Positions 12,987 to 63,660 of a DNA stretch of 64,000 nt are shown in pieces. The notes under the pieces are model-generated. The model was not told where the DNA came from, searched no databases, and saw only the letters and a list, made by a program, of their open reading frames with translations. The translations under genes were made by a program, and so were the position numbers. Position 1 is the first letter of the stretch. Every line of letters begins with the position of its first letter. Source of the stretch: Microlunatus sp. Gsoil 973 (GTDB taxonomy: Bacteria; Actinomycetota; Actinomycetes; Propionibacteriales; Propionibacteriaceae); contig NZ_CP046122.1 in assembly GCF_009707365.1 (NCBI RefSeq), positions 2,604,001 through 2,668,000 of the forward strand. Reading direction: 5' to 3'.

Positions 12987-13152
12987 CTGCTCGTTCCCGC
13001 ACCAACTGCCCGTTCCCGCACCAACTGCTCGTTCCCGCGACAGCAACTCGATTGCGCACCGGCTGAAGCTGGTGCGCCGTCGAGTAACTGGTGCGTCACC
13101 GAGCAACTGGTGCGCAGTCGAGTGACTAGCGCATCGTCGAAGACCTGGTACG
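12987..13152. repeat. Inverted 19-bp repeat array, locus 1
   Basis: Three tandem 19-bp units (12987-13005, 13006-13024, 13025-13043; first unit CTGCTCGTTCCCGCACCAA) lead into an imperfect palindrome with arms 13054-13060 and 13071-13077. Four 19-bp units in the opposite orientation follow (13077-13095, 13096-13114, 13115-13133, 13134-13152; second unit TCACCGAGCAACTGGTGCG). Nineteen is not a multiple of three and the reading frames are unrelated to known proteins, so it is non-coding. It fills most of the gap after the Eis-type gene. The same architecture recurs at 29.4-30.1 kb and 54.9-55.2 kb. Confidence 0.85.
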
Positions 13153-26903: not shown

Positions 26904-27665
26904 TCAGACCGCGTCGCGCGCGGCGACCATCGATGCCACCGCCTCGTCAAGATCATCGGTCACGATGAGGATGCCGAGATCGGTCGGGCCGATCTTTCCT
27001 TCGGCCAGCACTGACTTCTCGAGCCATTCCATCAGGCCCGACCAGTAGTCGGTGCCGAGAAGCACAACGGGAAACCTGGTGATCTTGCGGGTCTGCACCA
27101 GCGTCACGGCTTCGAAGAGTTCGTCCAACGTGCCGAATCCCCCGGGCAGCACCAGGAATCCCTGGGAGTACTTGACGAACATCGTCTTGCGGGCGAAGAA
27201 GTAACGGAAGTTGACGCCGAGATCGACCCAGTGATTGAGCTCCTGTTCGAAGGGCAGCTCGATGTTGAGCCCGACGCTGACACCCTGGCCCTGCTGCGCT
27301 CCCCTGTTGGCGGCCTCCATGGCACCGGGACCGCCACCGGTGATCACCGCGAATCCGGCTTCGGCGAGCTTGCGGCCGGCTCGCTCCGCCAGCTGGTACT
27401 CCGGGGTACCGGGCTTGGTGCGGGCGGAACCGAAGACGGCGATCGCCGGTCCGATCTCGGCCAGTGCCCCGAAGCCCTCGATGAATTCTGCCTCGATCCG
27501 CAACACCCGCCACGGATCGGAATGCACCCAGTCGGTCGGGCCACGATGATCAAGGAGCCGCTGATCGGTTGTGGTCTGCTCGATCTGTCCGCGGCGTTGG
27601 ATGATCGGGCCCTTGATGCGGCTCGGGAAGTCGAGGTCCACGGGCCGCTGGTTGCTTGTCGTCAC
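26904..27665 (-). CDS. LOG-family protein (nucleotide phosphoribohydrolase-like)
   Basis: 253 aa Rossmann-fold protein of the TIGR00730/LOG family. Signature motifs are intact: GGGPGAMEAANRGA near residue 110 and LPGGFGTLDELFE near residue 173. Members hydrolyse cytokinin riboside or other nucleoside 5'-monophosphates to base and ribose-5-P. The extra N-terminal 60 residues fit the longer actinobacterial subgroup. The GTG at 27665 is the start used. It is convergent with the XRE regulator and 36 bp from the DUF1906 gene stop. Confidence 0.85.
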   Translation of the reverse strand: MTTSNQRPVDLDFPSRIKGPIIQRRGQIEQTTTDQRLLDHRGPTDWVHSDPWRVLRIEAEFIEGFGALAEIGPAIAVFGSARTKPGTPEYQLAERAGRKLAEAGFAVITGGGPGAMEAANRGAQQGQGVSVGLNIELPFEQELNHWVDLGVNFRYFFARKTMFVKYSQGFLVLPGGFGTLDELFEAVTLVQTRKITRFPVVLLGTDYWSGLMEWLEKSVLAEGKIGPTDLGILIVTDDLDEAVASMVAARDAV

Positions 27666-27701
27666 GGAGCAAGTGAAGCACTCCGGGTCCGCTCGGGTGG
27701 G

Positions 27702-29252
27702 TCAGAGCAGCGGACTGCGGTTGGTCCAGCCCCCGGAGAGCTTGATCCGGCTCCCCAGGCCGTTCTGCTTGCCGGGATACAGGTACAGGTTCCCCGTGCT
27801 CTTGTCGACCGCCATCAGGTCCGGATAGCTGCGGCGATCGAAATTGCCGACACCCACCAGGCCACGCCGGTCGGACCATCCCGTGCCCAGGTTGATCCGA
27901 GCAGCGAAGCCGCTTGCCTTGCCGGGATACAGATACAGCGTGCCGGAGGCGGTGTGGCGGGCCAGCAGGTCAGGCCTGCTGTCTCCGGTCAGGTCGCCGA
28001 TGCCGGTCAGCTCACTCATCGTCTGCCAGTCCGGCCCGAGGCTGATCCGGCTGGCCAGCGCGGTGCCACGGCCGGGATAGAGGTAGAGCGTGCCCGATGA
28101 CTTGTCCGCCGCCACCAGGTCCGGGAAGCCGTCGCCGGTCAGGTCGCCCACCGCGGTGGTCTCCCGCATGGCGTTCCATCCGGTGGCCAGCCGGACCCGC
28201 GGCCCGAGCCCGGAGCCGGTGCCCGGGTAGAGCCACAGGTAGCCGGTGTTCGAGTCGCGGACGATGATGTCGTCCGGACCGTCACGATTGAAGTCGCCGA
28301 ACCGGGTGATCGAATCCGAGGCGGTCCACTTGCTCGCGATCCGGGTCCGACTCTCCAGGTTGGTGCCGTTGCCCGGGTACAGGTACACGTCACCCGTCGC
28401 TGTGTCGCGGGCCAGCAGATCGGGCCACCCGTTTCCGGTGAAGTCGTTGAAGCCCGGGCCGGGCAGCACTTTCAGGTCGACGTAATCGGTGTCGATGTTG
28501 ATCTTGACTCCGCCCCAGGTCTCGTCGTGGCCGCCGCGGTATTGGTGGCTCCGACGGTGGGGGCTCCAGTAGCCGGACGGAATCGCCGGGTTGTCCACGC
28601 CGGCGACACCGTCGTAGCGGGCGAACCACAGATAGTCCGGATGCGGTCGGCTGGTGGAGCGATAGTCGTCGACCAGGTCCCGGACGGTGGAGTTCAGGCT
28701 GCCGTAGGCGCCGGAAAGGTAACCGAGGTCATGCAGTCGTGAGGTCCAGGCGCCGAGGAAGCTGAGCACTGCAGTCGTGCAGGCGGAGTTGTTCTCGGCG
28801 TACGCCTCCATGTCGAAGATCAGGGTGCTGTCCCGGGGGAGCCCGAGGGCTTTGGCCGCCGTCACGGCCGCCTCGGCCTCCGACCTGCCCTGGGCGGAGG
28901 CCCGGGCAGGATCGAAGAGGTTCTTCTTGTTCGACGTCGTGCACGGCGCCTGCAGCCCGAGATAGATGGGCAGCAGATGCCAGCCCTGCGACTGCTGGTG
29001 ACTGACCCAGGACGCGGTGAGATTCGGCTGGCTGCAGGCACGGTTGCTGCCGCCGAAGTAGATGCCGACCGCGCGATACGGCGACGCGAGCCAGGCGTCC
29101 ATCGCGGCCGACGACGGCGCCGTACAGGCATCGAACCCCGGGCCGGTGTAGGTTCCGGGTGCGCGGTCCGCCGCCGCTGCGCGCGGCGGGACCAGCCCGA
29201 CCATGATCAATGCCAGCATCAGCGCCAGCAACCATCCCGACGTCCGCCTCAT
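27702..29252 (-). CDS. Secreted DUF1906 domain plus FG-GAP repeat protein
   Basis: 516 aa. A Sec signal peptide (residues 1-27, LLALMLALIMVGLVPPRAAA) is followed by a DUF1906 glycoside-hydrolase-like TIM barrel (FDACTAPSSAAMDAWL, AVGIYFGG, FDMEAYAENNSAC near residue 140), as in Rv2525c. From about residue 265 there are five FG-GAP/VCBS-like repeats of roughly 50 aa, each with a calcium-loop-like motif (GDLTGDGFPDLVA) and a LYLYPGxG strand. Probably a cell-wall-associated protein. The start at 29252 (GGGGG upstream) is preferred: the ORF runs on to 29882 only because the upstream 19-bp repeat array lacks stops. Confidence 0.85.
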   Translation of the reverse strand: MRRTSGWLLALMLALIMVGLVPPRAAAADRAPGTYTGPGFDACTAPSSAAMDAWLASPYRAVGIYFGGSNRACSQPNLTASWVSHQQSQGWHLLPIYLGLQAPCTTSNKKNLFDPARASAQGRSEAEAAVTAAKALGLPRDSTLIFDMEAYAENNSACTTAVLSFLGAWTSRLHDLGYLSGAYGSLNSTVRDLVDDYRSTSRPHPDYLWFARYDGVAGVDNPAIPSGYWSPHRRSHQYRGGHDETWGGVKINIDTDYVDLKVLPGPGFNDFTGNGWPDLLARDTATGDVYLYPGNGTNLESRTRIASKWTASDSITRFGDFNRDGPDDIIVRDSNTGYLWLYPGTGSGLGPRVRLATGWNAMRETTAVGDLTGDGFPDLVAADKSSGTLYLYPGRGTALASRISLGPDWQTMSELTGIGDLTGDSRPDLLARHTASGTLYLYPGKASGFAARINLGTGWSDRRGLVGVGNFDRRSYPDLMAVDKSTGNLYLYPGKQNGLGSRIKLSGGWTNRSPLL

Positions 29253-29398
29253 CACGCTCACCCCCGCGTACGGTGGCGCCAGTCGACCACCGGGAGCCGC
29301 GCTGAAGTAGTGGCTTTCGTCCTGACCTTGTCGTCCCGAGAACCCGCGGGCGCCGGTTCCCGCACCCCTCGTCCGCTCCCCCACACTTTGCCCGGCCC
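29253..29398. other. Upstream region of the DUF1906 gene
   Basis: 146 bp with no recognisable gene, between the DUF1906 start and the repeat array. It should hold the promoter of that gene (minus strand), but I see no clear -10/-35 pair. Confidence 0.4.
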
Positions 29399-30062
29399 GC
29401 ACCATTTGCCCGTCCCCGCACCCGCTGCCCGGCCCCGCACCATTTGCCCGGCCACGCACCATTTGCCCGGCCACGCACCATTTGCCCGGCCCCGCACCAT
29501 TTGCCCGGCCCCGCACCCGCTGCAGCCGGTGCGCCGCCGACGTACCGGTGCGCCGTCGAGGAACTGGTGCGGCATCGACGAAGTGGTGCGCGCACACCCC
29601 ACCGAGTCGGGTTCCCCGCACCATTTGCCCGGCCCCGCGCCCCTTACCCGGCCCCGCACCCGCTGCAGCCGGTGCGCCGCCGACGTACCGGTGCGGCATC
29701 GACGTACCGGTGCGGCATCGACGAACTGGTGCGCGCACACCCCACCGAGTCAGCGTTCCCCGCACCATCTGCCCGGCCCCGCGCCCCTTACCCGGCCCCG
29801 CACCCGCTGCAGCCGGTGCGCCGCCGACGTACCGGTGCGCCGTCGAGGAACTGGTGCGGCATCGACGAACTGGTGCGCGCACACCCCCGCCGGGTCAGCG
29901 TCCCGCACCATTTGCCCGGCCCCGCACCATTTGCCCGGCCCCGCACCATTTGCTCGCTCCCGCGCCCCTCACCCGGCCCCGCACCCGCTGCAGCCGGTGC
30001 GCCGCCGACGTACCAGTGCGGCATCGACAAACTGGTGCGCGCACACCCCACCGAGTCAGTGT
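29399..30062. repeat. Inverted 19-bp repeat arrays, locus 2 (four tandem modules)
   Basis: The largest of three such loci. The first module has six 19-bp left units (29399-29512, for example GCACCATTTGCCCGGCCAC at 29437), a CTGCAG-centred palindrome at 29513-29533, and three opposite 19-bp units (29534-29552, 29553-29571, 29572-29590). Three more modules follow, with CTGCAG at 29663, 29807 and 29988, that is 143, 144 and 181 bp apart; each ends in a GCGCACACCCC(A/G)CCG(A/G)GTC tail. Long ORFs occur in several frames on both strands but consist only of these repeats. It separates ychF from the DUF1906 gene. Confidence 0.88.
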
Positions 30063-30131
30063 CCGCACCTGCTCGAGCGAGCGGCCGCCGAAGGTTTCCC
30101 GCACCCTCACGGCGCCCAGTCCGCTGGAGGA

Positions 30132-31202
30132 CTACACGTTGAAGCGGAATTCGACCACGTCGCCGTCGTGCATGACGTAGTCCTTGCCCTCGATCCGGAC
30201 TTTGCCGGCCTCCCGCGCTTTGAGCAGTGACCCGGCGGCGACCAGGTCGTCGTAGGAGACGATCTCGGCCTTGATGAACCCCTTCTGGAAGTCGGTGTGG
30301 ATGACACCGGCAGCTTCCGGTGCGGTCGCGCCCTTGCGGATCGTCCAGGCCCTCGATTCCTTCGGGCCGGCGGTCAGGTAGGTCTGTAGGCCGAGGGTCT
30401 GGAAACCGACGCGGGCCAGATGATCAAGACCGGGCTCCTCGATTCCCATGTCTGCCAGGAATTCCGCGGCCTCGTCCGGCTCCATCTCGGCCAGCTCGGA
30501 TTCGATCTTGGCGTCAAGGAAGATCGCCTCGGCGGGAGCGACCAACCGGCGGAGCTCCTCGCGGGTCGCCTCGTTGGTCTCGTCGGCGCTGGTGTTGAAG
30601 ACATACAGGAACGGCTTGGCGGTGAGCAGAAACAGGTCACGCAGCGGGCCGCGATCGAGCCCGGAGCCGAAGACCGTCTGCCCCGACTCCAGCACTTCCT
30701 GGGCCTGTTTGACCGCCACGACGACCGCCTGCTGGTCCTTGTTGAAACGGGCTTCCTTCTCCAGCCGCGGCAGCGCCTTCTCGATGGTCTGCAGGTCGGC
30801 CAGGATCAGCTCGGTGGAGATGGTGTCGATGTCGCCGGAGGGGTTGATCTTTCCGTCAACGTGGGTCACGTCCGGGTCCTCGAAGACGCGGGTGACCTGA
30901 CAGATCGCGTCCGCCTCGCGGATGTGGGACAGGAACGCATTGCCCATCCCCTCCCCCTTGCTGGCGCCGCGGACGATGCCGGCGATGTCGACGAAACTGA
31001 CCGTCGCCGGCACGACCCGTTCGGACTTGAACAGCTCCGCCAGCACGGCAAGCCGGGGATCGGGTACGCCGACCACGCCGACATTGGGCTCGATCGTCGC
31101 GAACGGGTAGTTCGCGGCAAGCACGTCGTTGCGGGTCAGCGCGTTGAACAGTGTCGACTTGCCCGCGTTGGGCAGGCCGACGATTCCGATGGTGAGGGCC
31201 AT
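30132..31202 (-). CDS. ychF: Redox-regulated P-loop ATPase YchF/OLA1
   Basis: 356 aa. Obg-like NTPase that prefers ATP; associated with ribosomes and stress responses. Motifs: G1 GLPNAGKST (residues 8-16), FATIEPN switch region, G3 DIAGIVRGA with the hydrophobic residue replacing the catalytic Gln, and NTSADE in place of the GTP-specific NKxD. The C-terminal TGS domain ([32 protein letters not shown]) ends in EFRFNV, the normal YchF terminus. In mycobacteria ychF is close to ispH and xseAB, as here. Confidence 0.95.
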
Positions 31203-31282
31203 TCAGCTCCGCTTCCCAAGAGGAGGGTTTTCGGTCAGTGCGTTACGCAACCGCCCACCCTACCCGGGCCTAGATTGGGCCT

Positions 31283-32020
31283 GTGCATTTCGTCGGCGAC
31301 TCGTTCGTCCGCTGGGGCATCGGCCATCAGACGATGCTGGCCGTCACAGTCATCGGCTCGGTGCTGCTGATCGTCGTCGGCAGGCGGATCCGCGGCACCC
31401 GGTCGGAGACGGTGCTGTCCGTGGTGTTCGCGGCGACCCTGTTCGTGGTTGCGGTGATCCACGTCGTCCACGGGCTGCTGCCGGTCAACTTCCGGCTCCA
31501 GGGATCGATTCCGCTGCAGTTGTCCGACGTCCTGCGTTTCGTCTCGGCGTACGCCCTGTTGACCCGGCGGTTCTGGGCGACGTCGGTCGTCTACTACTGG
31601 GGGCTGACGTTCAATCCCCACTCCTTGATCACGCCGAACCTGCACTACACCGATTCCCCGATCTACGACTTCACCATGTACTGGTCCTTGCACATCTTCG
31701 TGATGTGGGCCGCCATCTATCTGACCTGGGGACTGGCCCACCGGCCGAACTGGCGGAGCTACCGGATCGCGATCATCGCGACGCTCGGCTGGGCGGTCGT
31801 CGCGTTCACCTTCAACGTGCTGGCTGGCACCAACTACGGGTTCCTCAACGCCACGCCGACCAGCGCGTCGTTGTTGGACCTGATGGGTGACTGGCCGGTC
31901 TATCTGTTCACCGCGTTCATCGCGATGTTCGTCGTCTGGGCGTTGATCACATTGCCCTGGATGATGCGCCGGCGGCCGGTCACGACGGATCGGACAGAAA
32001 CGCCTGCATCGCCAGGCTGA
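31283..32020 (+). CDS. TIGR02206-family membrane protein (YwaF-like)
   Basis: 245 aa integral membrane protein with about seven hydrophobic segments. The family pattern is visible in PLQLSDVLRFVSAYALLT and YYWGLTFNPHSLITPNL near residues 80-120 and NYGFLNATPTSASLLDLMG near residue 200. Function unknown. The GTG start at 31283 lies 80 bp from the divergent ychF start. Its last 41 bp overlap the convergent M18 aminopeptidase gene, so the two mRNAs are antisense at their 3' ends. Confidence 0.82.
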   Translation: MHFVGDSFVRWGIGHQTMLAVTVIGSVLLIVVGRRIRGTRSETVLSVVFAATLFVVAVIHVVHGLLPVNFRLQGSIPLQLSDVLRFVSAYALLTRRFWATSVVYYWGLTFNPHSLITPNLHYTDSPIYDFTMYWSLHIFVMWAAIYLTWGLAHRPNWRSYRIAIIATLGWAVVAFTFNVLAGTNYGFLNATPTSASLLDLMGDWPVYLFTAFIAMFVVWALITLPWMMRRRPVTTDRTETPASPG

Positions 32021-33353: not shown

Positions 33354-33737
33354 GTGCCGAGCGACGTCTTCACACTGATCGCCGAACCGAACCGGCGGGC
33401 GATCCTGGATCTGCTCCGAACCGGCCCGGCGACCGTAGGCCAACTGGTCGAACGCCTCGACCTGTCGCAGCCGACCGTGTCCAAACATCTGCGCGTGCTG
33501 CGGGAGAACCAGATCGTGGAGGCGACGGTCGCCGCACAATCCCGGATCTACCGGCTGAACGCCGCCCCGCTCGCGGAGCTGGACAGCTGGCTGCAGCCGT
33601 ACCGGCGACTCTGGGAGCGCAGCTTCACCCGACTCGGTGAACACCTCGACCGCCGGCAGGACGCAGACCGGACAAACGCTGACTGGACGAACGATGACCG
33701 GACGAACGCTGACCGGACGAACGATGAGGAGACCTGA
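33354..33737 (+). CDS. ArsR-family winged-helix repressor
   Basis: 127 aa. The winged helix-turn-helix is complete: IAEPNRRAILDLL, TVGQLVERLDLSQPTVSKHLRVLRE (helices 3-4) and the wing. No metal-binding CxC motif is present, so the signal is probably not a metal. The C-terminus is a tail of four 5-residue repeats (DRTNA-type) encoded by a 15-bp tandem repeat. The GTG start follows a strong palindromic operator. Its stop overlaps the ATG of the SRPBCC gene (TGATG), a common repressor-SRPBCC operon. Confidence 0.88.
   Translation: MPSDVFTLIAEPNRRAILDLLRTGPATVGQLVERLDLSQPTVSKHLRVLRENQIVEATVAAQSRIYRLNAAPLAELDSWLQPYRRLWERSFTRLGEHLDRRQDADRTNADWTNDDRTNADRTNDEET
33666..33725 (+). repeat. 15-bp tandem repeat inside the ArsR gene
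   Basis: Four 15-bp units (33666, 33681, 33696, 33711; for example GACCGGACGAACGCT) encode Asp-Arg-Thr-Asn-Ala-type pentapeptides at the C-terminus. Units differ by one to three bases. In-frame copy-number change would lengthen or shorten the tail without breaking the gene. Confidence 0.85.
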
Positions 33738-54930: not shown

Positions 54931-55226
54931 CGCACCAGTTCGTCCGCACCGCACCAGTTCGTCCGCGCCGCACCAGTTCGTCCGCACCGCACCAGTTCGT
55001 CGGCGGCGCACCGCCTGCAGCCGGTGCGAGGTCGAGTACGGGTCGCGGGAACGAGCAACTGGTGCGGGAACCACCCGGCGCGTCCCCGCGCGCACCAGTT
55101 CGTCCGCACCGCACCCGTTCGTCCGCGCCGCACCCGTTCGTCGGCGGCGCACCGCCTGCAGCCGGTGCGAGGTCGAGTACGGGTCGCGGGAACGAGCAAC
55201 TGGTGCGGGAACGAGCAACTGGTGCG
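54931..55226. repeat. Inverted 19-bp repeat arrays, locus 3 (two modules)
   Basis: Between two convergent genes. Module one: four left units (54931, 54950, 54969, 54988; CGCACCAGTTCGTCCGCAC), a CTGCAG-centred palindrome at 55007-55028, then right units at 55029 and 55048 (GGAACGAGCAACTGGTGCG). Module two repeats this: left units at 55091, 55110, 55129, centre 55148-55169, right units 55170, 55189, 55208 (last two identical). The CTGCAG sites are 141 bp apart. The rest of the 441-bp gap (54865-54930 and 55227-55305) holds no recognisable gene. Confidence 0.88.
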
Positions 55227-63479: not shown

Positions 63480-63660
63480 CGCCTCGGCCGTCCCCGGGGC
63501 GCTCCATCCGCTCCGCCCGCTGTCGCCCGTGTCCGCTCCGGCCCTCTGCCCGCTGTCCGCCCCGCCTGTCTGCCCGCTGTCCTCCGCCCCTATGCCCGTT
63601 GTCCGCTCCACCCCTGCTCGCGGTCCGCTCCGCCCTCCGCCGTCTACCCTCTGCACTCTG
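63480..63660. repeat. Low-complexity CCGCTGTCC-type tract
   Basis: Degenerate tandem C/T-rich sequence (CCCGCTGTCCGC-like units) upstream of mca. It is strongly strand-asymmetric, with few A on the plus strand. No gene is supported. It continues into the CACGTG repeat element. Confidence 0.55.

Follow-up and report, generated by a model that had tools for sequence, protein, structure and literature searches.

The stretch of DNA analysed here, which we call the window, comprises 64,000 nucleotides of the genome of Microlunatus sp. Gsoil 973 (contig NZ_CP046122.1, positions 2,604,001 to 2,668,000 of the forward strand), and its positions 29399-30062 hold a tandem array of modules built from inverted 19-bp units. 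The array lies between two genes of the minus strand. On one side is ychF (30132..31202; TIGR00092, 420.7 bits), whose stop codon is ~93 bp from the array end, as placed by our own gene caller; on the other is a gene called at 27702..29219, with an Rv2525c-like glycoside-hydrolase-like domain and FG-GAP repeats, whose 5' end faces the array—its matches to PF08924 (E 3.1e-49) and PF13517 were obtained on a longer reading, 27702-29255. A scan of window positions 27000-32000 against Rfam gave no match. Two further arrays of the same family, neither assigned a strand, lie in the window: a degraded one at 12999..13114 with two left boxes, three right boxes, and a centre without TGCA, and a two-module array at 54932..55226 with centres 141 bp apart.

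The array consists of four modules of one plan: GCACC units on the left lead to the centre GCACCCGCTGCAGCCGGTGC, and GGTGC units on the right are followed by the tail GGTGCGCGCACACCCC, as a first-pass annotation of this DNA had described. A layout of the window sequence returned the CTGCAG centres of that annotation exactly (29520, 29663, 29807, and 29988), together with their spacings of 143, 144, and 181 bp; its tandem module of about 144 bp also emerges independently from Tandem Repeats Finder, which gives a period of 143 with 90% matches and a score of 776. One figure has to be corrected: the last interval is indeed lengthened by two 19-bp left units, but the extra length is 37 bases and not the 38 claimed, because one base is lost at the junction (34 -> 33).

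In this layout, left arms are on the plus strand, right arms on the minus strand, and centres carry no strand. Module 1 has a left arm of six 19-bp GCACC units at 29399..29512—degenerate units may reach back to ~29387 according to Tandem Repeats Finder—followed by the centre at 29513..29532, a near-palindrome with one C:C mismatch, and a right arm of N14-GGTGC units plus tail at 29533..29600. Modules 2 and 3 each have two left units (29618..29655 and 29762..29799), the second of which starts with GCGCC, then a centre (29656..29675 and 29800..29819) and a right arm plus tail (29676..29743 and 29820..29887). Module 4 has four left units, two above modules 2 and 3 and one of them again with a GCGCC start (29905..29980), its centre at 29981..30000, and a right arm plus tail at 30001..30049. 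The left units ahead of the centre thus number 6, 2, 2, and 4, and the right boxes 4, 4, 4, and 3, the count for module 4 taking in one box decayed to AGTGC. Sub-arrays of 19 bp are nested within the 143-bp period (29387-29517 has period 19), the compared cores of the modules are 92-95% identical, and a search of both strands of the own-genome stretches described below gives six copies of GCGCACACCCC, four of them on the plus strand of the window.

That duplication acts at two levels, the 19-bp unit and the whole module, had also been proposed for this locus, and the proposal is upheld both here and at other loci of the family that we call subfamily B. Two to four modules are present in 19 of 46 B loci, and neighbouring modules have a mean identity of 0.87 within loci vs 0.75 between loci (115 sampled pairs). 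Six of the eight three-module loci have two similar spacers (130/130, 81/79, 78/77, 65/65, 41/40, and 43/49), and two have unmatched ones (88/110 and 171/15). The interval between successive modules changes by an amount within 2 bases of one or two units in six of ten comparisons (18, 19, 21, 37, 38, and 39), the remaining differences being 1, 6, 98, and 175. The matched spacers and the steps of roughly 19 or 38 bases indicate that whole blocks of module plus spacer were duplicated, with units gained or lost afterwards. Copy number may, as that annotation expected, vary between strains, the genomes compared here being one per species.

The unit is a single directional 19-bp motif, GCACCA.TT..TCG....C, arranged in opposed arms: units on both sides face inward, toward a GCACC-N10-GGTGC centre with TGCA at its midpoint. 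The unit is not palindromic—the near-palindromic part of a B array is its centre only. A common profile, GCACCA-S-TT-V-S-TCG-R-Y-S-S-C, is shared by 169 left units and 228 reverse-complemented right units, with conservation of 80-91% at positions 8-9 (TT), 79-93% at position 12 (T), 91-97% at positions 13-14 (CG), and 99-100% at position 19 (C), while positions 7, 10, 17, and 18 are mixed. The near-fixation of the GCACC box is partly built in, because positions 1-5 belong to the calling rule (four of five bases); positions 8-9, 12, 13-14, and 19 lay outside it. Own-genome stretches totalling 708,565 bp, a sample selected because it bears elements, contain 213 copies of GCACCANTTNNTCG, of which two lie outside catalogued B spans, and one of these two, at 3491165, is a further B element. 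At variable sites, neighbouring units in one arm are identical at 0.70 (left) or 0.65 (right), with 0.44 between loci; the units are homogenised arm by arm.

The B family is chromosome-wide, comprising ~46 mostly intergenic arrays of which the locus at 29399-30062 is one; the first scan that pointed to it scored 40 of 110 candidates. Across the 4.91-Mb genome, GCACC-N14-GCACC occurs 224+263 times, compared with 13+4 for its reversed control. Within the own-genome stretches, GCACC boxes are spaced by 19, 38, and 57 bp 444, 294, and 178 times, vs a median of 12 for spacings of 5-60; with counts so far above the controls, a chance origin of the 19-bp arrays is excluded. Inward spacings of 15, 34, and 53 bp are found 103, 175, and 192 times in the same stretches, vs a median of 4.5 for spacings of 5-60, and the B family keeps 15 bp between the innermost boxes of its two arms. 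A tolerant caller returned 79 module rows in the own-genome stretches around array places, reduced to 75 B modules by removing three subfamily A elements and one spurious row; TGCA is central in 73 of the 75, and the unit and centre statistics are restricted to modules with a TGCA centre. The number of loci depends on the grouping rule: 46 in the module analysis, 45 for gene context, and 43 when a TGCA centre is required. At least five B elements elsewhere, added by a sequence model (1566791, 2785035, 2861426, 3491165, and 4064800), stand outside these locus counts. Gene context comes from our own codon-usage gene caller, by which the stretches are 87% coding, and 44 of 45 B loci are intergenic (tandem 23, convergent 12, divergent 9), with one called inside a gene. 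Convergent gaps are modestly over-represented (12/44 vs 48/336 gaps of at least 60 bp, p 0.03). Fourteen of 168 loci were scanned against Rfam, and the sole match was a tRNA.

One explanation of such a family is a functionless satellite, in which tandem arrays grew neutrally between genes and loci resemble each other through a common source and local gene conversion. It accords with the occurrence of arrays in every intergenic type and with their homogenisation locus by locus, and also with the GCACC 19-bp arrays of other genera (52 vs 27 control matches outside the own genome, among the matches listed). What it does not predict is the unevenness of the unit: positions 13, 14, and 19, all outside the calling rule, are 91-100% fixed between loci next to mixed neighbours, and since neutral decay should hit all positions alike, this argues against a satellite. 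The 15-bp centre spacing, which stands out without any calling rule, and the near-constant TGCA of the B centres are likewise hard to fit to neutral growth. We consider the satellite explanation doubtful, if still of some weight.

The same genome carries a second form, subfamily A, which is a 66-68-bp near-perfect hairpin with boxes at 0, 19, 34, and 53 and a GTGTAC-like apex. At least 29 elements score at least 63 bits on the better strand, among the best 150 scored of 2552 first-look candidates; 10 lie in convergent, 13 in tandem, and 2 in divergent gaps, and our gene caller put the other 4 within genes. Twenty of the 25 extragenic elements have a gene 3' end no more than ~50 bp away, and convergent gaps hold 10 of the 25, vs 48 of 336 gaps of at least 60 bp in the same stretches (binomial p 0.0015).

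Relatives carry elements of the same build, mainly as single copies: hairpins of 58-68 bp with the 19-15-19 box geometry of the own genome, each in its own sequence dialect. These singles have the boxes GCACC, GCACC, GGTGC, and GGTGC, with an apex of 4 bases, which in most is TGYA or the complement, and end ~5-7 bp outside the 58-bp core; in the two best-populated relatives, G006 and G011, the inner and flank sequences are particular to each. With up to two mismatches, the four-box pattern is present in 67 of 391 genomes of the order, with 99 occurrences in the own genome, 44 in G011, 32 in G006, 15 in G012, 11 each in G003 and G239, 9 in G010 and G383, 7 in G285, 5 in G018, 4 in G132, and one or two in the others, a level at which the control pattern too gives one in some genomes. 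A model of subfamily A, searched under stricter filters, matches 8 of 196 order genomes including the own, the seven others far more weakly, and the B model matches at least 10 of 20 genus genomes, own included (150 candidates scored per genome). Four boxes in one arm, allowing one mismatch, occur 167 times in the own genome; none of 197 other genomes of the family has more than 11 occurrences. We opened eight such loci from other genomes; seven have no GCACC-N10-GGTGC centre, and in one a lone centre lies away from the array. As the inverted centre is missing from these eight arrays, head-to-head arrays were seen, among the loci opened, only in the own genome. The reversed control also finds 19-bp arrays, so tandem repeats of this period may be widespread in the family.

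Several variants accompany these hairpins. G019 (L132, L140) has a hairpin version with 20-bp rather than 19-bp unit spacing and a GTAC-like apex; G022 and G059, of other genera, have 19-15-19 hairpins with GCGCC/GCTCC boxes and a GGTATT apex (L131, L133), which L141 resembles with a centre one base longer. A further dialect of G006 (L217, L219-L222) is GCACCC.AAATC-like with an A+T-rich apex, and one copy of it is duplicated 81 bp apart (1806006, 1806087). Other genera of the family (L270-L275) have plain tandem arrays of 19-bp GCACC units that lack the inverted centre.

The position of the single hairpins could point to transcription termination, and a family of terminators—singles acting in both directions at gene ends, arrays being reinforced clusters—is an alternative that has to be weighed. 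The preference of A for gene 3' ends and convergent gaps is what it would predict, and so are the distances of the relatives' singles to a gene 3' end, which are 50 bp or less in 19 of 24 cases in G006 and 23 of 31 in G011, the slight convergent excess of B, and the folding of the 664-nt array at 29399-30062, which is better than that of its own shuffles (z -6.8, 20 shuffles). The 58-mers of the singles fold strongly, with mean energies of -44 to -47 kcal/mol, and their arms covary (see below). Termination by hairpin clusters has been reported in the excerpted text of PMC8355165, and our elements share with the clusters described there a closeness of hairpins to stop codons and the occurrence of several in a row. 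Unlike those clusters, B arrays avoid centre pairing and also occupy divergent and tandem gaps. The singles of G006 and G011 show no excess in convergent gaps (4/25 vs 10/56 background, and 5/37 vs 12/80), and 5 of 29 and 11 of 42, respectively, lie between divergent genes; the B form loses its pairing and folds less well, at a mean of ~-35 kcal/mol per 58-mer, and four identically spaced boxes with dialects exceed the needs of a terminator. The trait of an intrinsic terminator, a stable hairpin just past a stop codon, is seen in most A elements and many of the relatives' singles and is not general for B. As an account of the whole family, termination seems to us unlikely.

Pairing separates the singles from the arrays. 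When left and right arms were permuted between elements, the N14 segments proved to pair better within elements in G011 (0.84 vs 0.69 permuted, z 8.7, 42 elements), in G006 (0.77 vs 0.55, z 8.2, 28 elements), and, less strongly, in A (0.76 vs 0.72, z 2.8, 29 elements); in B the pairing was not above permutation (0.63 vs 0.65, z -1.1, 29). At the 30 B loci that have both arms, left and right arms in fact resemble each other less than they do after permutation of loci (0.411 vs 0.453, p 0.003), in a test on seven variable sites picked after the unit profile was seen; position 7 alone gives p 0.0004 as one of 13 positions looked at. Compared with chance, the five centre pairs are below expectation in B (z -3.6) and G011 (z -2.2), neutral in A (z 0.5), and above it in G006 (z 3.9). 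The first B centre pair, 6/15, is Watson-Crick at 4 of 43 loci vs 15.0 expected, and none of the 43 B centres is perfectly palindromic. We rejected a hairpin or RNA as the main reading of the B array, as its arms do not covary and its centres avoid pairing. A locus-specific extension of the hairpins, suggested by complementary flanks at a few loci, was also rejected: in a permutation test, ungapped pairing at 6-20 bp from the 58-bp core gave z values of -0.1, 1.2, and 0.8.

Some single hairpins occupy the same gaps in different species. The gap after rpoC (TIGR02386) is filled in three of them, which is again as a terminator would have it: an A element lies 17-18 bp past the stop codon in the own genome, and hairpins of the other dialects lie ~90 bp past it in G006 and ~78 bp in G011. 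A second element ~1.1 kb beyond the first is also common to the three genomes; the A hairpins are at L108:3090-3157 and L108:4207-4274 (genome 4662089 and 4663206), and the same two gaps are found in L213 of G006 and L260 of G011. A third A element, at 4084655, and an element of G011 have their right-hand neighbour in common, that flank alone being matched. This brings to 3, out of 29, the A elements whose gap or flank also holds an element in G006 or G011. At the other own-genome sites inspected opposite G006 or G011 elements, there is no such element. Two candidates were discarded: the B array of L049 and the G011 single of L264 lie on opposite sides of one gene, and the hairpins of G003, suspected of following rpoC from a similar element spacing of 1107 bp, gave no blastn match to the own-genome region.

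The B arrays have apparently grown from a short hairpin that relatives carry mainly as single copies, and this leads to the explanation that we hold, on balance, to be rather probable: the locus at 29399-30062 is one of ~46 arrays descended from a dispersed hairpin and expanded by unit slippage and module duplication, with arms that are non-complementary and a putative protein as reader. The observations that it draws on are the anatomy, the genome-wide family, the rigid geometry, the arm-wise homogenisation, the lost or avoided pairing in B, and the covariation in singles. To these it would add the descent of B from a single hairpin, the routes of slippage and recombination, a filter of palindrome instability, and the protein. 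The ancestral form would be a palindrome of 58-68 bp with four 5-bp boxes at 0, 19, 34, and 53, persisting as the singles of relatives and as subfamily A, and subfamily B would have multiplied in place in the own genome. Replication slippage or unequal exchange may have added 19-bp units to each arm separately, and recombination between units may then have duplicated whole modules, spacers included. Since bacteria do not stably maintain long perfect palindromes, the arrays that lasted would be those whose two arms had ceased to be complementary. The fixed unit positions, finally, may be the sites of a sequence-specific protein, a putative reader of the unit being the simplest account of their conservation.

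Parts of this expansion scheme meet contrary evidence. Position 7 is under-paired in A too (0.28 vs 0.43 expected), which tempers the argument from palindrome instability, as do the under-paired centres of G011; both are short elements that should not need such a filter. The avoidance of pairing is concentrated at unit position 7 and centre position 6, and so a recognition rule needing unlike bases could explain it as well as palindrome instability does. In-place expansion itself was not seen, no gap having been found with a single hairpin in G006 or G011 where the own genome has a B array, nor any B array in a gap shared with a G006 or G011 single among the pairs that blastn can match. At the ychF locus, expansion in place was sought in relatives and rejected: by eye, no four-box element lies within ~330 bp of the ychF end in any of the 17 relatives in which ychF matches over essentially its full length (for one of them the flank is just 171 bp), and gene order in the ychF region of relatives is unlike that of the own genome. 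A loose two-box regular expression matched ~300 bp from ychF in three relatives, apparently in coding sequence, and further off in two.

A bolder version of the protein reading would have the arrays form a chromosome-wide addressing system of this bacterial family, in which a putative protein assembles outward from a TGCA nucleation site along the head-to-head 19-bp boxes, in each species the protein's recognition dialect evolves in step with the full set of sites, and, in this species, sites built up into graded arrays (1-12 boxes per arm) have ceased to form hairpins since it is the double-stranded form that is read. Taken jointly, these three claims are quite improbable in our judgement.

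Comparison with known systems gives partial likenesses. Like bacterial minisatellites and VNTRs of the MIRU type, B arrays are tandem repeats in intergenic DNA whose length slippage would probably alter; unlike VNTRs, they repeat one conserved unit at ~46 loci, their arms oppose each other across a fixed centre, and whole modules are duplicated.

REP, REPIN, and BIME elements are short extragenic palindromes, species-specific and present in tens to hundreds of copies, according to the excerpted texts of PMC3116915 and PMC2817692, and the same excerpts describe the hairpin-forming inverted pairs and the clusters that our elements also show. The likeness extends to extragenic position (25 of 29 A elements, from the best 150 of 2552 scored, and 44 of 45 B arrays). 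Palindromes of the REP/BIME type moved by a REP-associated tyrosine (Y1) transposase would account for dispersed, mostly extragenic palindromes in tens of copies with a species-dependent dialect; nevertheless, we rejected REP/RAYT membership, as PF01797, the RAYT profile, has no match in any of 20 genus genomes vs 5 of 14 control genomes. Nor do the element flanks give a signal of target-site duplication, viral contigs hold no exact match to two patterns, and the array has no blastn match in plasmid or phage records with the low-complexity filter on. A GTAG or CGTC tag at one end is a mark of REPs in the excerpt of PMC3733652, and it is absent here, the flank consensus just outside the core being TTGCC in A, CCGCC in G011, and CAGCC in G006. 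Unlike REP/REPIN/BIME elements, ours have four boxes at 0/19/34/53, and their arrays lengthen through 19-bp half units, not palindromic in themselves, that are added to either side of one centre. With no Y1 transposase, no tag, and a non-palindromic unit, three tested features fail, and the elements are only somewhat REP/BIME-like; movement by such a transposase is very unlikely.

By analogy with the DNA uptake sequences (DUS) of Neisseriaceae, the boxes might be uptake words with species dialects. As excerpted from PMC3630211, DUS have a core word and species dialects, and their inverted pairs are suggestive of terminators; the conserved core, species-specific flanks, and inverted pairs near gene ends of our elements are comparable. 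Unlike DUS, which number thousands through genes, our words have tens to hundreds of copies, nearly all in arrays or hairpins, with a fixed four-box geometry, tandem arrays, and almost no solitary words in the 708,565-bp sample. The very high copy number of DUS, genes included, has no counterpart here, with two of 213 unit motifs outside catalogued B spans, and we judge an uptake function to be most improbable. In open-access full texts, as represented by titles and the starts of abstracts and with subscription papers outside the scope, we found no description of an element of this kind.

What these elements offer is a natural series from a single hairpin to a multi-module inverted array within one genus, in which pairing is kept in the single form and lost in the expanded one. 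The series makes two questions testable—how, without a RAYT, dispersed palindromes stay uniform within each genome yet differ from species to species, and what allows long inverted repeats to survive in a bacterial chromosome—and the arrays could serve as strain markers. Elsewhere in the window, there is an unrelated 22/46-bp tandem repeat at 63507-63635, and a 15-bp tandem repeat (ACGCTGACCGGACGA) at 33661-33727 that lies in the 3' part of the ORF at 33354-33737 and gives it a repetitive C-terminus.
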